A DNA stretch of 64,000 bases from an uncultured Verrucomicrobiota bacterium. Its GTDB lineage: Bacteria; Verrucomicrobiota; Verrucomicrobiia; Limisphaerales; UBA9464. This document shows positions 7,407 to 61,950 of the stretch, piece after piece. How positions within the stretch are numbered: position 1 is the first letter of the stretch; every line of letters begins with the position of its first letter. Position numbers and translations under genes: made by a program. The notes below the pieces were generated by a model, which had not been told where the DNA came from, searched no databases, and was given only the letters and a program-made list of their open reading frames with translations. The DNA is taken from contig CAIVQH010000041.1 of the NCBI GenBank assembly GCA_903907995.1, positions 186,001 through 250,000 on the forward strand, given 5' to 3'.

Positions 7407-9740
7407 ATGAATCTGATGAAAGTCCGCCCTGATCTTGCTGCCGCCCTGAGCGCTCTCGCGCTGATGGCAGGCGCTTTTCCGATCCAGGCTCAGCTTCCGC
7501 TAGCGCGCCTGAACTGGGTTTTTCCGACGGGCATGCGCGCGGGCACCACCAACGAACTGACAATTTCGGGCAGCAGCCTCGACGATCCGACCGGCCTGCG
7601 CTTTTCCGACACGCGCATCGTGGCCACGGCCAAGCCGGACAACGCCGCCGTGTTCACTGTCATCGTCCCGCCGGAAGTGCCGCCGGGTTTTGTGGATGTC
7701 CGGTTCACGGGCCGGTTCGGCGTGTCGAATCCGCGGGCGCTGGCCATCGGGGACACCGCCGAGCTCACCGCGCCGACCTCCAACACGTCCGCCGCAACCG
7801 CGTTCGAGCTGCCGTTGGATTCCGTGGTGGATGGTCGGACTGCGGCGAACACCGCCAGCTGGTTTCGCTTTGCCGCGAAGGCCGCCCAGCGGCTCGTCAT
7901 CCGCACGCAATCGCGCGAGCTGGATTCACGGCTCGAACCCATGCTCGTCGTCCTCACTACCGATGGCCGCGAACTCAGCCGCTCCCGGCGCGGCTTCCTG
8001 GATTTTACCGCGCCGGCGGAAGGCCATTTTCTGCTCCAGCTCCACGACCAGACCTTTCGCGGTGGCGACGATTTCAGCTACCGGCTGACGGTCACCGCCG
8101 GCGCGCAGCTCGAGTTTGCGCTGCCCAACGTGCTGCGCGCGGGTGAAACCAATTTCGTGACGCTGTACGGCCATAACCTGCCCGGGGACGAACGCAGTCC
8201 GGTCACCGATGCCGAAGGCCGTCCACTGGACCGGCTTGGGGTCGAGGTGATCGCCCCGGCCCTCGGCGGAACGCCGGCGGAACTGATCCGCAAACCTGCT
8301 GCCGCGATGCTGGCGGGCGAGGCCTTCGCCTGGCGGTTAGGTTCGACCAATGGCAGCTCCAATCCCCTGCTCTTCACCCTGACGACGAATCCCGTGTTCG
8401 TTTCGCTCACCAACGGGATCGTGCCGGTCACGCCGCCGTGCGAGTTCTCCGGCCTCTTCCCCAAGCGGGGCGAATTGAACGGCGTCGTGTTTGAGGCGAA
8501 GAAAGGTGACGTGCTGTGGGTGGAGCTGTGGGGCGAACGGCTCGGCCAGGCCTGCGATCCGTTTGCCCTCCTGCAGCGCGTCACTAAAAACGACAAGGGC
8601 GAGGCGCAGTACGGGGATCTGCAGGAATTCAACGACGGCGACACCAACGTGGGCGGGCGCGATTTCAACACCGCGACCCGCGATCCGGCGGGCCGGATCG
8701 AGATCAAGGAGGACGGCAGCTACCGAATCCTGGTGCGCGACCTGTTCAACACGGGAGCGACCAGTCCCCGTCATCCGTATCGGCTCAGTCTCCGCCGTGA
8801 AACTCCTGACTTCCGCCTTGTCGCCCTGCCCCAACCACCGCCCAAGGCCAAGGACGACGACCGGCAGGTACACGTGGCCAGCACCTTCCTCCGACAGGGT
8901 GAGACGCTGCCGGTCCGGGTTTTGGCGCTGCGCCGCGACGGTTTCAGCGGCGACATCGAAATCACCGCCACCAACTTGCCGGCGGGTGTCTCGGTGACAC
9001 CCGGACACATCCTCGCCGGACAGAATGCCGGGCAACTGCTTTTGACCGCCGCCGAAGGCGCGACCGGCTGCACCAACGTGCAATTCCTCGGCCGTGCCGT
9101 CATCGGTGCCGGCGAAGTTTCGCGGCTCGCCTCCTTGGGCACCGTGATCTGGCCGGTGGGCGACTACGATCAGGAGGCGGTCGCCACGCGGCTGGACCGC
9201 GATGCGTCGGTCGCCGCGGGTTCGGCCGAATGGGCTCCGGTCACCCTGCAACCGGCAGAGTCAAAAACCTATGAGGCCACCGTGGACGGCAAACTTACCC
9301 TGCCACTGAACGTCACCCGCCGTGGGGATTTCAACGCCGCCTTCAACGTGAAGCCCTTTGGCAATCCCACGCTCGACAAGGCGAAGGATGTGTCCATCGC
9401 GGAGAAGGCCACGAACGCGACCGTCGAGATCAACCTCGCGGAACTGAAACTGCCGGAAGGCACGCACACGCTGTGGGTTCAGGGCGTCGTCGCCGGCAAA
9501 TACCGGAATAATCCCGAGGCGCTGACAGCCGCCGAAGCCGAGCTGAAGGAGCTGGAGAAAAATCTGGCCACCGCGCCCGCCGCCGAAAAACCGAAGCTCG
9601 AAGAGCGCAAGAAGGCGGTCGAGGCTAAGCGCAAGGCCGCCGAAGATCGTGCCAAACCGGCGGACGTTACCGTGGCGGTCTATTCGCAGCCCTTCCTCGT
9701 GAAAGTTTTGCCCGCGCCCAAACCGGAGGTAAAAAAGTGA
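7407..9740 (+). CDS. Secreted PPC-domain protein of the cytochrome block
   Basis: The 777-residue protein has a signal peptide (residues 1-28, ending ...FPIQAQ). The first mature segment, WVFPTGMRAGTTNELTISGS, is an IPT/TIG-like beta domain that opens many PVC-group exported proteins. Residues about 130-230 (ELPLDSVVDGR...WFRFAAKAAQRLVI...) form a pre-peptidase C-terminal (PPC) beta-sandwich, and a second PPC-like module spans about 340-470. The C-terminal 90 residues contain a short Ala/Glu/Lys-rich coiled coil (AEAELKELEKNLATAPAAEK...). There is no catalytic motif, so it is probably a structural or binding partner. The stop overlaps the GTG start of the cytochrome/WD40 gene by 4 nt, which implies translational coupling. 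Confidence 0.8.
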   Translation: MNLMKVRPDLAAALSALALMAGAFPIQAQLPLARLNWVFPTGMRAGTTNELTISGSSLDDPTGLRFSDTRIVATAKPDNAAVFTVIVPPEVPPGFVDVRFTGRFGVSNPRALAIGDTAELTAPTSNTSAATAFELPLDSVVDGRTAANTASWFRFAAKAAQRLVIRTQSRELDSRLEPMLVVLTTDGRELSRSRRGFLDFTAPAEGHFLLQLHDQTFRGGDDFSYRLTVTAGAQLEFALPNVLRAGETNFVTLYGHNLPGDERSPVTDAEGRPLDRLGVEVIAPALGGTPAELIRKPAAAMLAGEAFAWRLGSTNGSSNPLLFTLTTNPVFVSLTNGIVPVTPPCEFSGLFPKRGELNGVVFEAKKGDVLWVELWGERLGQACDPFALLQRVTKNDKGEAQYGDLQEFNDGDTNVGGRDFNTATRDPAGRIEIKEDGSYRILVRDLFNTGATSPRHPYRLSLRRETPDFRLVALPQPPPKAKDDDRQVHVASTFLRQGETLPVRVLALRRDGFSGDIEITATNLPAGVSVTPGHILAGQNAGQLLLTAAEGATGCTNVQFLGRAVIGAGEVSRLASLGTVIWPVGDYDQEAVATRLDRDASVAAGSAEWAPVTLQPAESKTYEATVDGKLTLPLNVTRRGDFNAAFNVKPFGNPTLDKAKDVSIAEKATNATVEINLAELKLPEGTHTLWVQGVVAGKYRNNPEALTAAEAELKELEKNLATAPAAEKPKLEERKKAVEAKRKAAEDRAKPADVTVAVYSQPFLVKVLPAPKPEVKK

Positions 9741-60267: not shown

Positions 60268-60407
60268 GGCATCGGTTAGAACTTCGATTGGCTGAGAGAG
60301 GATTGGTCGCCAGGAAGCATCCGCCAATCCGGTGAGTTGACGGCGCAAGCCGCTATCCTCTCGTTAGCGGGAATTCCCTGATTTTCTTGTTTGAGCTGGC
60401 GTATTTC

Positions 60408-60459
60408 TTGGGCCATGATTGGCCCAATCAGATTAGATAAAAGGTAATTAGATAAAAGG
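60408..60459 (+). promoter_or_regulatory. Palindrome plus 13-bp direct repeat upstream of RNA element A
   Basis: TTGGGCCA-TGAT-TGGCCCAA (60408-60427) is a perfect 8-bp dyad. It is followed by ATTAGATAAAAGG twice (60432-60444 and 60447-60459), ending at the first base of RNA element A. The AT-rich direct repeat could hold the promoter and the dyad an operator; alternatively the dyad ends the PPIase transcript. Within the gap 60268-60669, nothing else but RNA element A and a 36-codon ORF (60575-60685) was noted. Confidence 0.4.
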
Positions 60460-60530
60460 CATTGTCGGCGCGCCCCATGCGCGGCCGTTTCTCCGGTCAG
60501 GCGCAAGGCCTGAAAGCAAGGGAAACAATG
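60460..60530 (+). ncRNA. Candidate structured RNA, copy A (upstream of PAS gene)
   Basis: P1 is CATTGT (60460-60465) with ACAATG (60525-60530). P2 is CGGCGCGC (60466-60473) with GCGCgGCCG (60479-60487), which has one bulged G and a 5-nt loop. P3 is CAGGC (60498-60502) with GCCTG (60508-60512). The single strands CTCCGG before P3 and AAAGCAAGGGAA after it are shared with copy B. A further imperfect hairpin follows (around 60550-60565). It matches no riboswitch consensus I know. A 36-codon ORF begins 44 nt after P1, the PAS gene 139 nt after it. Confidence 0.6.
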
Positions 60531-60669
60531 CAATCGTGACATGGATTCGGCCACATCCGATTCCGTTTCCAGTGATGAATACACTCCATTGCATGGGCAG
60601 GGCCGCTTTGACGGGCGATGCTCAGACAGGAATGATTCCCGGACGTTGCGTCAGGCCGGCCCTTGAAGC

Positions 60670-61161
60670 ATGCCTATGCCCCTGATTCGGCGATGCCTCA
60701 ATGAAATCCCTGCGTTGGTGGCCTATTGGGATGCCAACGAGCGATGTCATTTTGCCAACGAAGCCTATCTGGAATGGTTCGGTCGCGCGCCGGAAGCGAT
60801 GGAGGGAATGACGCTGGGTGAATTGCTCGGCCCAATCTACGACAAGAATCTCCCCTATATTCAGGGAGCGCTTCGGGGGGAGCGGCAGATTTTTCGCCGG
60901 GCCATCCCGATCCTCAGCGGCGAGATCCGCCAAAGTTTGGCGACCTATACCCCCCATATCGGCAGCGGTCGGGTGCTGGGATTCACGGTTCACGTGGCCG
61001 ACATTACCCCGGTCCTCCAACGGGAAAAGGAATTGGAGGCGGCATTGCTGGAGACCATCTCAGCTCTGGAAAGAACCAAGCGCAGCTTTCGTTCCAAAGA
61101 ACTGGGAGAGCTGCGCGCCCGGCTGCTGAAGATGTGCGGTGAGTCGGACAGGTCCGATTGA
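60670..61161 (+). CDS. Stand-alone PAS-domain protein
   Basis: The 163-residue soluble protein is a PAS fold of the PAS_4 type: IPALVAYWDANERCHFANEA, YLEWFGRAPEAMEGMTLGEL, and VLGFTVHVADITPVLQREKE. It is followed by a coiled coil (about 115-150: LEAALLETISALERTKRSFR). There is no kinase, GGDEF or MCP signalling output domain, so it probably works by binding a partner. ATG codons at 60670 and 60676 are both possible. It precedes cheW by 189 nt and has RNA element A in front, suggesting a shared role in chemotaxis or light/redox sensing. Confidence 0.75.
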   Translation: MPMPLIRRCLNEIPALVAYWDANERCHFANEAYLEWFGRAPEAMEGMTLGELLGPIYDKNLPYIQGALRGERQIFRRAIPILSGEIRQSLATYTPHIGSGRVLGFTVHVADITPVLQREKELEAALLETISALERTKRSFRSKELGELRARLLKMCGESDRSD

Positions 61162-61235
61162 CGCGCAGGCAGTCGTGAGATGGCGCGAAGCAGGCTAAAG
61201 TCCGTAACCGCGGTGCCGATAAGGGCGGAGCAGAA

Positions 61236-61308
61236 CATTGTCGGCGCGCCCTGTCAGCGCGGCCGTCCTCTCCGGGCAGGCACAGGCTTGTAAGCAAGGG
61301 AAACAATG
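61236..61308 (+). ncRNA. Candidate structured RNA, copy B (upstream of cheW)
   Basis: P1 is CATTGT (61236-61241) with ACAATG (61303-61308). P2 is CGGCGCGC (61242-61249) with GCGCgGCCG (61257-61265), with the same bulged G but a 7-nt loop. P3 is CAGGC (61277-61281) with GCTTG (61286-61290), so the pairing seen in copy A is kept through a G-U pair while the loop changes. CTCCGG and AAGCAAGGGAAACAATG are identical to copy A. A hairpin TCGCGG-CTT-CCGCGA follows at 61312-61326. The cheW ATG is 42 nt downstream. Confidence 0.6.
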
Positions 61309-61350
61309 GGATCGCGGCTTCCGCGACCATCGACCCAGTTGCTTGCAACC

Positions 61351-61950
61351 ATGAACAACCCGCCGTCCTGCCCGACCGCGCACTTGCCGGAGGCCACCCC
61401 TTCGGAAGTTTCCGCCCCGACGGCAGAACTCGCCAACCTCGCAGGAAATTATCTCCTCTTCCGGCTCGGTGACGAATCCTATGCCGCTTCGGTGCGGCAG
61501 CTCCATAAGATCATGCTTCCGTCCGCCCGGACGGCGGTTCCGGAACTGCCGCATCATGTACCGGGAATGATCAGTCTGCGGGGTACGCTCATCCCCACGA
61601 TCAGCCTGCGCAGGAGATTGGGCCTGGCCGAAGGGCCGACCACCAAAGACTCCTGCATCCTGGTGGTCCAACTCGAACTGATCAGCGGCTGGCTGACTCT
61701 GCTGGGCTTCATTGTGGACGAGGTGGAGGAGGTCGTGTCTCTCGCCGCCTCGGACATCGTGGAAACGCCTGATTTAGGCCCCCTGCTCGGCCTGACCCGG
61801 GTGAAGGGTGGCGTCACCACGCTCCTGGACCTCGGCAAAGTCGTGGGCGACGACCCCGCTGAACTGTTCCGGCCCATCCCGCCCGGCGGAGAATCGGAAA
61901 CGACCAGACCAGATCGCGTCAGCTCCCAGTCCCATCGCACAATTCCATGA
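61351..61950 (+). CDS. cheW: CheW-like chemotaxis coupling protein
   Basis: ATG 61351 (MNNPPSCPTAHLPEA) gives 199 residues. After a non-conserved leader of about 30 residues comes the CheW beta fold: YLLFRLGDESYAASVRQLHK, VPELPHHVPGMISLRGTLIP, TISLRRRLGL, LGFIVDEVEEVVSL and VKGGVTTLLDLGKVV. It would couple receptors to CheA. No cheA or cheY lies in the window. A receptor start codon overlaps its stop by 4 nt (ATGA), but that receptor gene is only a remnant. Confidence 0.88.
   Translation: MNNPPSCPTAHLPEATPSEVSAPTAELANLAGNYLLFRLGDESYAASVRQLHKIMLPSARTAVPELPHHVPGMISLRGTLIPTISLRRRLGLAEGPTTKDSCILVVQLELISGWLTLLGFIVDEVEEVVSLAASDIVETPDLGPLLGLTRVKGGVTTLLDLGKVVGDDPAELFRPIPPGGESETTRPDRVSSQSHRTIP

Follow-up and report, generated by a model that had tools for sequence, protein, structure and literature searches.

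A 64,000-nucleotide stretch of DNA from an uncultured Verrucomicrobiota bacterium (contig CAIVQH010000041.1, positions 186,001 to 250,000; hereafter the window, at its full length) carries two copies of a structured RNA element on the + strand, at 60460-60531 (copy 1) and 61236-61309 (copy 2), next to genes for a PAS-domain protein and a CheW-like protein. Both were pointed out at these places in an initial annotation that was made from the sequence alone. The comparative analysis reported here indicates that the element is most likely a new class of cis-acting riboswitch-like leader that would function as an ON switch. That it is a cis-acting switch of some kind appears highly probable. In the more specific form that we favor, with a probability of roughly 0.55, it would be the riboswitch-like leader, triggered by a small molecule or an ion, of mRNAs that Verrucomicrobiota transcribe with sigma28 for chemoreceptors and other chemotaxis proteins.

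Copies 1 and 2, which are 0.7 kb apart, share a 6-bp helix P1, an 8-bp P2 with an identically placed bulged G and a P3 of 5-6 bp, in which one pair is G-C in one copy and G-U in the other. In a whole-length alignment the differences between them are confined to the loops and to single bases, and their strong similarity ends at the element boundaries. P1 is formed by 60460-60465/60525-60530 in copy 1, where the aptamer is intact, and by 61236-61241/61303-61308 in copy 2; the latter copy has P2 at 61242-61249/61257-61265, with the bulged G at 61261, and P3 at 61276-61281/61286-61291, to which a conserved internal loop, YCGG/AAGN, is added. In copy 1, P1 is absent from the minimum-energy fold and present in the centroid. 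Given that single-sequence folding of the two copies is unremarkable (z -1.2 and -0.6), these copies alone would not prove the fold, and the proof has to be comparative.

Covariance models were built from the two window copies (R1), from 8 sequences (R2) and from 17 sequences (R3), and were iterated over the family f29 and the class. The two-copy model, the construction of which had been proposed in the initial annotation, added nothing convincing when run on 57 relatives that share the genus, family or order, where the best match apart from the known copies reached 22.8 bits; on a 387-genome sample of the phylum it recovered relatives in G238 (E 1.9e-12) and G226 (E 1.1e-6), which belong to the same class and to a different family, f29. 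At least 26 copies in 17 genomes were eventually accepted, 24 of these in 16 genomes of f29 and 2 in the window's genome. These copy counts are lower bounds because the genome searches scored the best 12-150 candidates per genome; the model E-values are rough, and related copies are non-independent observations. With R3, 24 copies score at least 50 bits, and L115 and L116, at 36-37 bits, were accepted on context, that is, a sigma28-like promoter upstream and a chemoreceptor gene downstream. In the window's genome (G000; 5.1 Mb, 60 contigs, 95.67% complete), none was found beyond the two.

Several candidates were set aside. The match L117 in G156 (33.6 bits) lies within a coding sequence, has a best promoter site of 7/16 and was rejected, so that it is outside the tallies after the promoter test. 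A doubtful match in G597 (L118; 30.5 bits, with a promoter-like site 16 nt from P1) was kept in the alignment and in the hairpin P4 test below, outside the 26. Matches below 29 bits (L004-L007, L052, L057-L061, L080-L087, L093-L101, and one each in L066 and the window) were regarded as background; this cut was set by a gap in the R2 scores (at least 55 bits, then 25.5), with the alignments inspected for L004, L052, L057 and L058, the surrounding DNA for L052 and L057, and the rest judged by score. The gap was imperfect: a second copy in G331 was missed, later scored 36.4 bits and was accepted at 59.3 bits with R3. A pattern scan of genome contigs returned 10 stretches, among which the sole relative was L067 (JAPLTR010000646.1, which by its length and its match appears to be the G594 contig); the remaining nine were four with scores of 14-19.5 bits and five without a match at E <= 1. 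Similar DNA was not found in plasmid records.

Covariation was assessed on an alignment of 27 rows that includes the doubtful L118 and is fitted to the model, so that the counts lean towards the model. In this alignment 96.4% of the P1, P2 and P3 cells are paired, 12 of the 19 pairs are changed on both sides, and the cells changed on both sides number 69 vs 18.9 in shuffles (0/500); the signal is gone when the partner columns are slid by 1-3. All three helices covary, P2 and P3 being those for which the initial annotation had looked to covariation. P1 shows the least, with 2 of 5 pairs and 5 cells, and 97% of its cells are paired. Free prediction with RNAalifold recovers P2, the upper part of P3 and the pair C63-G90. 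Since G-U cells number 44 and A-C cells 6, the + strand is indicated.

The joining strands of the junction had been described in the initial annotation as nearly invariant. The strands are not all single-stranded, however. Columns 58-61 pair with columns 92-96 and form the lower part of P3 (26 cells changed on both sides vs 8.9 in shuffles), and the conserved joining strands are therefore partly paired and P3 is extended. The pair 58-96 is CG in 10 rows, UA in 10 and UG in 5; 60-93 is AU in 8, UA in 5, GC in 3, CG in 2 and UG in 1; and 61-92 is UA in 23, with CG, GC and UG once each. The internal loop YCGG/AAGN, which perhaps contains tandem G-A pairs, lies between the lower and the upper P3 together with the invariant pair C63-G90. 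Overall, C63, G64, G90 and G97 are conserved in 27/27 rows, A88 and A89 in 26/27, and G65 and the bulged G49 in 25/27. The GRAG preceding P1 is less strict (G97 in 27/27, A99 in 21/27, G100 in 22/27), and the loops of P2 and P3 vary freely in sequence. An alternative CCG/CGG pairing within the junction is compensated in one row and broken in others. The 3' strand of the element is purine-rich, with GGA in most rows; the register of this GGA is not fixed and it lies outside the hairpin loops.

These patterns bear directly on whether the element is an RNA at all or a mobile DNA repeat (a miniature inverted-repeat transposable element, a repetitive extragenic palindrome or an integron attC-like site), as the presence of two copies 0.7 kb apart and a short terminal inverted repeat, P1, could suggest. 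Compensatory changes with G-U pairs on one strand, the finding of just two copies in the genome, and the recurrence of promoter and gene context in other genomes leave a repeat with a negligible probability. Neither random or antisense placement, nor a lack of compensation, nor a match to a mobile repeat appeared, and the view of the initial annotation that this is a structured RNA, proposed there as one that binds a ligand or a protein, and not a DNA repeat is supported, as do the three-way junction and the G-C to G-U change on which it was based.

For the promoter analysis, the 55 nt upstream of P1 were scanned with the E. coli sigma28 (FliA) consensus, which we take to be TAAAGTTT-N11-GCCGATAA, allowing spacers of 10-12 and using base shuffles as the control. 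The best site ends 7-13 nt upstream of P1 in 23 of the 25 testable copies, and its shuffle P is at most 0.03 in 19 of the 25; the 26th accepted copy, L065, has too little upstream sequence for this test. The exceptions in distance are window copy 1 and one copy in G226, with its best site at 22 nt; the site in G594 is at the right distance with a weak score (9/16, P 0.36). Copy 2 of the window has the promoter TAAAGTCC-N11-GCCGATAA at 61196-61222 (+ strand), which ends 13 nt upstream of P1, matches 14 of 16 consensus positions and was equaled by 0/500 shuffles and by 0/352 other stretches in the same 20-kb locus. The window's genome encodes FliA (C6:15491-16168), and FliA was found above the cut-off in 9/9 element-bearing f29 genomes of the sample (the other 7 are outside the sample) vs 83/150 in the whole sample. 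Given the position of the sigma28 site 7-13 nt before P1 in nearly all testable copies, the element is probably the 5' end of sigma28-dependent motility transcripts.

A promoter in this position is also what would be expected of a small RNA that is released from the 5' untranslated region (UTR) and acts in trans, in the manner of MotR, which PMC10578931 describes as a sigma28-dependent small RNA from the 5' UTR of a motility gene in E. coli. The element resembles MotR and the other UTR-derived small RNAs of E. coli that depend on sigma28: it too would belong to the 5' UTR of motility genes and be transcribed from a sigma28 promoter, and most copies (23/25, window copy 1 not among them) own such a promoter. 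In contrast to MotR, its spacing and its cognate pairing link it in cis to the start region (see below). Action in cis is indicated by the fixed spacing to the ATG, by local cognate pairing and by the occurrence of several diverged copies in a genome, each of which precedes a different gene, and a terminator-like stem with a U run was noticed after one copy alone (L115), without a systematic scan. Release of a trans-acting RNA thus appears very unlikely.

The genes downstream fit a leader of chemotaxis mRNAs, in line with the placement before signalling genes that the initial annotation had anticipated. Chemoreceptor genes, that is, genes for methyl-accepting chemotaxis proteins (MCPs), follow 17 of the 26 copies: 13 contain the MCPsignal domain, and in 4 the sensor part is truncated by the end of the locus. 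Among the MCPsignal genes, the sensor part is Pro_CA, 4HB or Tll0287-like, or has no assignment. The MCP of G594 starts about 430 nt away, after an intervening frame of 90 codons. The other downstream genes (9/26) comprise the PAS and cheW genes of the window, two beta-barrel-like genes (TIGR03016, far below the cut-off), an alginate-export-like porin, a response regulator, two genes without a family (L109, L119) and a 71-codon frame, downstream of which lie a second element and an MCP.

Fusions of Pro_CA (beta-carbonic anhydrase) with an MCP follow four elements (L062:5168-7633, L064:260-2770, L065:1233-3620 and L106:166-2652), and two further genes (L110:1-1428 and L112:3-1460), in which the signalling part would be beyond the end of the locus, are probably of the same kind; it is possible that these proteins are CO2/bicarbonate receptors. 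The outer-membrane beta-barrel-like genes led by elements, which are alginate-export-like or very weakly TIGR03016-like, are L062:7977-11480, L063:8708-12220 and L103:5256-6668. In two cases such a gene is directly trailed by a long gene, which in L063 is MCP-like on reading, and these pairs are perhaps operons of a porin plus a receptor. In L102, L104, L109, L064 and L113, a short non-receptor frame of 25-90 codons starts 25-44 nt after the element; these frames near the usual start position are possible leader peptides.

The region between the element and the gene has a recurrent geometry. Stretches of 35 nt 3' of P1 fold with z < -1 in 19/27 cases vs 3/27 control stretches (Wilcoxon P 1.9e-6), the fold being a hairpin that we denote P4; in the window, P4 (61312-61326, + strand; stem TCGCGG/CCGCGA) lies immediately 3' of copy 2. 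The first ATG is 35-48 nt 3' of the element in 16/26 copies, against an expectation of 7%. The open frame of cheW begins at 61306 and has an ATG at 61351, 41 nt after copy 2; since this distance fits the family spacing of 35-48 nt, 61351 is favored as the start of the gene (CheW, PF01584; 61351-61950, + strand). The ATG at 61306, within P1 of copy 2, together with AAGGG, was considered as a designed start and ribosome site and rejected, as this ATG is unconserved in the relatives and 61351 fits the spacing. Shine-Dalgarno-like sequences are rare in these loci (2/24 leaders and 4/68 other genes), and the purine-rich 3' strand was not accepted as such a sequence, given this scarcity (4/68) and its pairing in P3 and in the alternative stem described next.

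A second pairing, mutually exclusive with the first, is found in the same leaders. The last 20 nt of the element, which comprise the AAG strand, GRAG and the 3' strand of P1, are able to form a duplex with a tract 3' of P4 that often lies shortly ahead of the start codon. When partners were swapped between copies, the cognate duplexes were the more stable (-16.27 vs -14.43 kcal/mol; P<0.0001, 26 copies), also after thinning at 80% identity (P=0.0003, 21 copies), and all 22 control tests with other element segments or other DNA stretches gave P >= 0.065. With the 22 nt before the first ATG beyond +30 as the partner, the swap test yields P 0.0004 (26 copies), 0.0038 (21) and 0.0126 (13, the thinned copies with the ATG at 35-48). 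A shuffle test, a poorer design than the swap test, gave a weak signal (mean z -0.58, with 7/26 copies below -1.5 vs 2/26 and 1/26 for other segments). With the 3' part folded by itself, 7 or more of the 20 bases are paired beyond +10 in 24/26 copies, and in a crude comparison of energies the alternative arrangement is the more stable one in 18/26 copies. In copy 2, this predicted OFF stem (61288-61348, + strand) pairs UUGUAAGCAAGGG at 61288-61300 with CCC at 61334-61336 and UUGCUUGCAA at 61339-61348; it encloses P4, ends 2 nt before the ATG at 61351 and excludes P1 and the 3' strand of P3. The region 61288-61365 folds with z -3.2 (1/200 shuffles as stable), and the stem also appears when the entire leader, 61236-61365, is folded to its energy minimum (z -1.6; 11/200). 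In L115 (G610), the same 3' strand instead provides the 5' side of a long stem with a U run after it, which resembles an intrinsic terminator. The family thus has a conserved, covarying aptamer in a 5' leader and, in a region chosen post hoc, an exclusive pairing that reaches the start region or a terminator, which window copy 1 lacks; the predicted pairing is the anatomy of a two-state switch.

A constitutive 5' structure without a specific ligand, which would protect the mRNA end, enhance translation without a Shine-Dalgarno sequence or serve as an RNA thermometer, would account for the start of P1 near the expected +1 and for the scarcity of Shine-Dalgarno-like sequences in these mRNAs. Simple protection, however, needs neither conserved junction and loop nucleotides nor a selected exclusive second fold, and a thermometer does not need a conserved core; we regard such a structure as improbable.

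In the mechanism that we prefer, the element would be the aptamer half of the leader, with the three-way junction held together by a small molecule or an ion that binds to it and to the internal loop, both of them conserved. When the junction is formed, the 3' strand would be locked, the tract before the start would be free and translation could start (ON); when the junction is open, the 3' strand would pair with this tract, P4 would be enclosed and initiation would be blocked (OFF). In L115, the same strand would form the terminator-like stem instead, with the same polarity, so that read-through would be free in the ON state. In the window, copy 2 would control cheW through the start-region switch. 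A small molecule or an ion is preferred as the trigger because the letters of the internal loop and the junction are conserved, and a cell-state signal that is common to motility appears likelier than the attractant of a single receptor because the receptors carry many different sensor domains. We put forward, tentatively, a new riboswitch class, an ON switch that would sense a motility-wide small-molecule signal and gate access to the start codon or read-through of a terminator; as to the nature of the signal, one may guess at a cyclic dinucleotide or at the methyl donor that serves receptor methylation.

The same two-state leader could be set ON or OFF by a protein bound at the junction. This protein might be a regulator of motility, possibly similar to CsrA, a ribosomal protein or an RNA chaperone. 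One leader for receptors of many specificities is what a motility-wide regulator would be expected to have, the 3' strand is purine-rich with its frequent GGA, and CsrA is present in 14/14 tested element-bearing f29 genomes (14 of the 16 were tested). Yet CsrA was also found in 10/15 f29 genomes without the element, and a search of the window's genome, which is 95.67% complete, did not find it despite the intact aptamer folds there; the position of the GGA shifts between rows and falls outside the hairpin loops, and no other candidate protein can be named. CsrA is thus an unlikely binder, and a protein trigger in general, the main alternative to a small molecule or an ion, seems rather unlikely.

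Several observations weigh against the small-molecule switch proposed here, or against parts of it. RNAalifold, run freely on the 27-row alignment, does not predict P1 and the lower P3, and the pair 59-94 is unpaired in 15/27 rows. P4 of copy 2, with a perfect 6-bp stem and -11.6 kcal/mol, has a z of just -0.5. The region for the swap test was picked after the folds had been inspected, which makes the test partly post hoc; in the same three sets, the first 22 nt of the coding region yield P 0.28, 0.16 and 0.024, and the mean z of complementarity is -0.53 at the start of the coding region vs -0.84 for the pre-start tract. The count of 24/26 copies from the folds of the 3' part has no shuffle control, and the L062 copy at 7717 has just 5 bases in the alternative pairing. 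A terminator scan with a pattern limited to loops of 3-8 listed nothing in L115. L115 and L116, at 36-37 bits, score close to the false match L117 (33.6). The element is rare, with at least 16 accepted genomes among the 250 of f29, and in L107 an MCP gene that adjoins the element has a sigma28-like site (11/16) and no element. Finally, copy 1 of the window has no recognizable sigma28 promoter (9/16, shuffle P 0.66) and no alternative stem (0 bp to the downstream tract).

The element matches no RNA family in Rfam 15. In the 64-kb window, no match to the 4227 families of Rfam 15 overlaps the element at gathering score. At E up to 10, the region 60300-61400 gives weak matches alone, the best overlap being atoC at 18.3 bits on copy 1 vs a gathering score of 50, and in the 19 loci with relatives no match overlaps a relative. 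The models RF01051 and RF01786, which we take to be cyclic di-GMP (c-di-GMP) riboswitch class I (GEMM) and class II, are unmatched in the window at gathering score and, at E up to 10, in 60300-61400 and the 19 loci. In these searches no Rfam family accounts for the element, in agreement with the initial annotation, in which no known class, c-di-GMP-I included, had been recognized.

The closest known systems include the c-di-GMP riboswitches. GEMM riboswitches are associated with motility and chemotaxis genes, and, to our knowledge, collective gating of chemoreceptor genes by RNA switches is mainly the work of c-di-GMP riboswitches. The element shares with these a structured leader before motility and chemotaxis genes and the placement of many receptor types under one RNA; it differs in the absence of a covariance-model match, in its junction and its conserved letters, and in that its P2 and P3 loops vary freely, without the conserved tetraloop contact of class I. 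Purine- and TPP (thiamine pyrophosphate)-type riboswitches likewise have a three-way junction closed by P1, the 3' strand of which is shared with the expression platform, an arrangement that the element repeats with no Rfam match, unconserved loops and a different core. According to PMC4894983, CsrA exerts post-transcriptional control on flagellin mRNA in Campylobacter. With such leaders the element would have in common that late motility genes are regulated after transcription by way of GGA motifs; unlike them, the element has no fixed GGA in a hairpin loop, and CsrA was not found in the window's genome. A literature search, in which subscription papers were largely out of reach so that absence from print is unproven, returned no description of such an RNA, and the main text of two genome-wide noncoding RNA discovery papers (PMC8632094, PMC11109978) does not mention chemotaxis, motility, mcp, Verrucomicrob- or Opitut-.

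If the proposed mechanism is true, some late flagellar genes in Verrucomicrobiota would be subject to a second check at the RNA level, a further gate after sigma28, and the phylum would have a separate class of RNA whose distance from sigma28 promoters is almost constant. The element would also offer ligand discovery a target for which the read-out is clear and for which G610 supplies a natural terminator-like variant; with the aptamer and both folds defined, along with several natural variants, the signal can be sought directly.

The sigma28 promoter, hairpin P4, the alternative stem and the paired joining strands are features beyond the initial annotation. Their distribution separates the two copies of the window: copy 2 is a typical member of the family, and in copy 1 the promoter and the switch stem were lost or were never present. 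Copy 1 keeps the aptamer fold (76.2 bits with R3) and is followed by a hairpin of -7.8 kcal/mol (z -1.0); it may be a decaying duplicate or may be transcribed from another promoter. The PAS-domain protein (PAS_4; 60670-61161, + strand), encoded between the two copies, shows 57% identity over 156 residues to a PAS protein that adjoins the element in G594, a genome of another family. Among the searched relatives of the window's genome, matches of at least 100 residues reach at most 36% identity, and two short pieces of 36 and 50 residues reach 49% and 46%. The higher identity to the G594 protein suggests that the PAS gene and the element may have been transferred between lineages. A transfer of cheW from f29 is unsupported: the CheW protein of the window is just 40% identical to a CheW of G226, and it is 40% identical to a protein from the same genus and 49% identical to one from another family of its own order. 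A tandem TTAGATAAAAGG repeat at 60433-60459 directly precedes copy 1, at the usual place of the sigma28 promoter.
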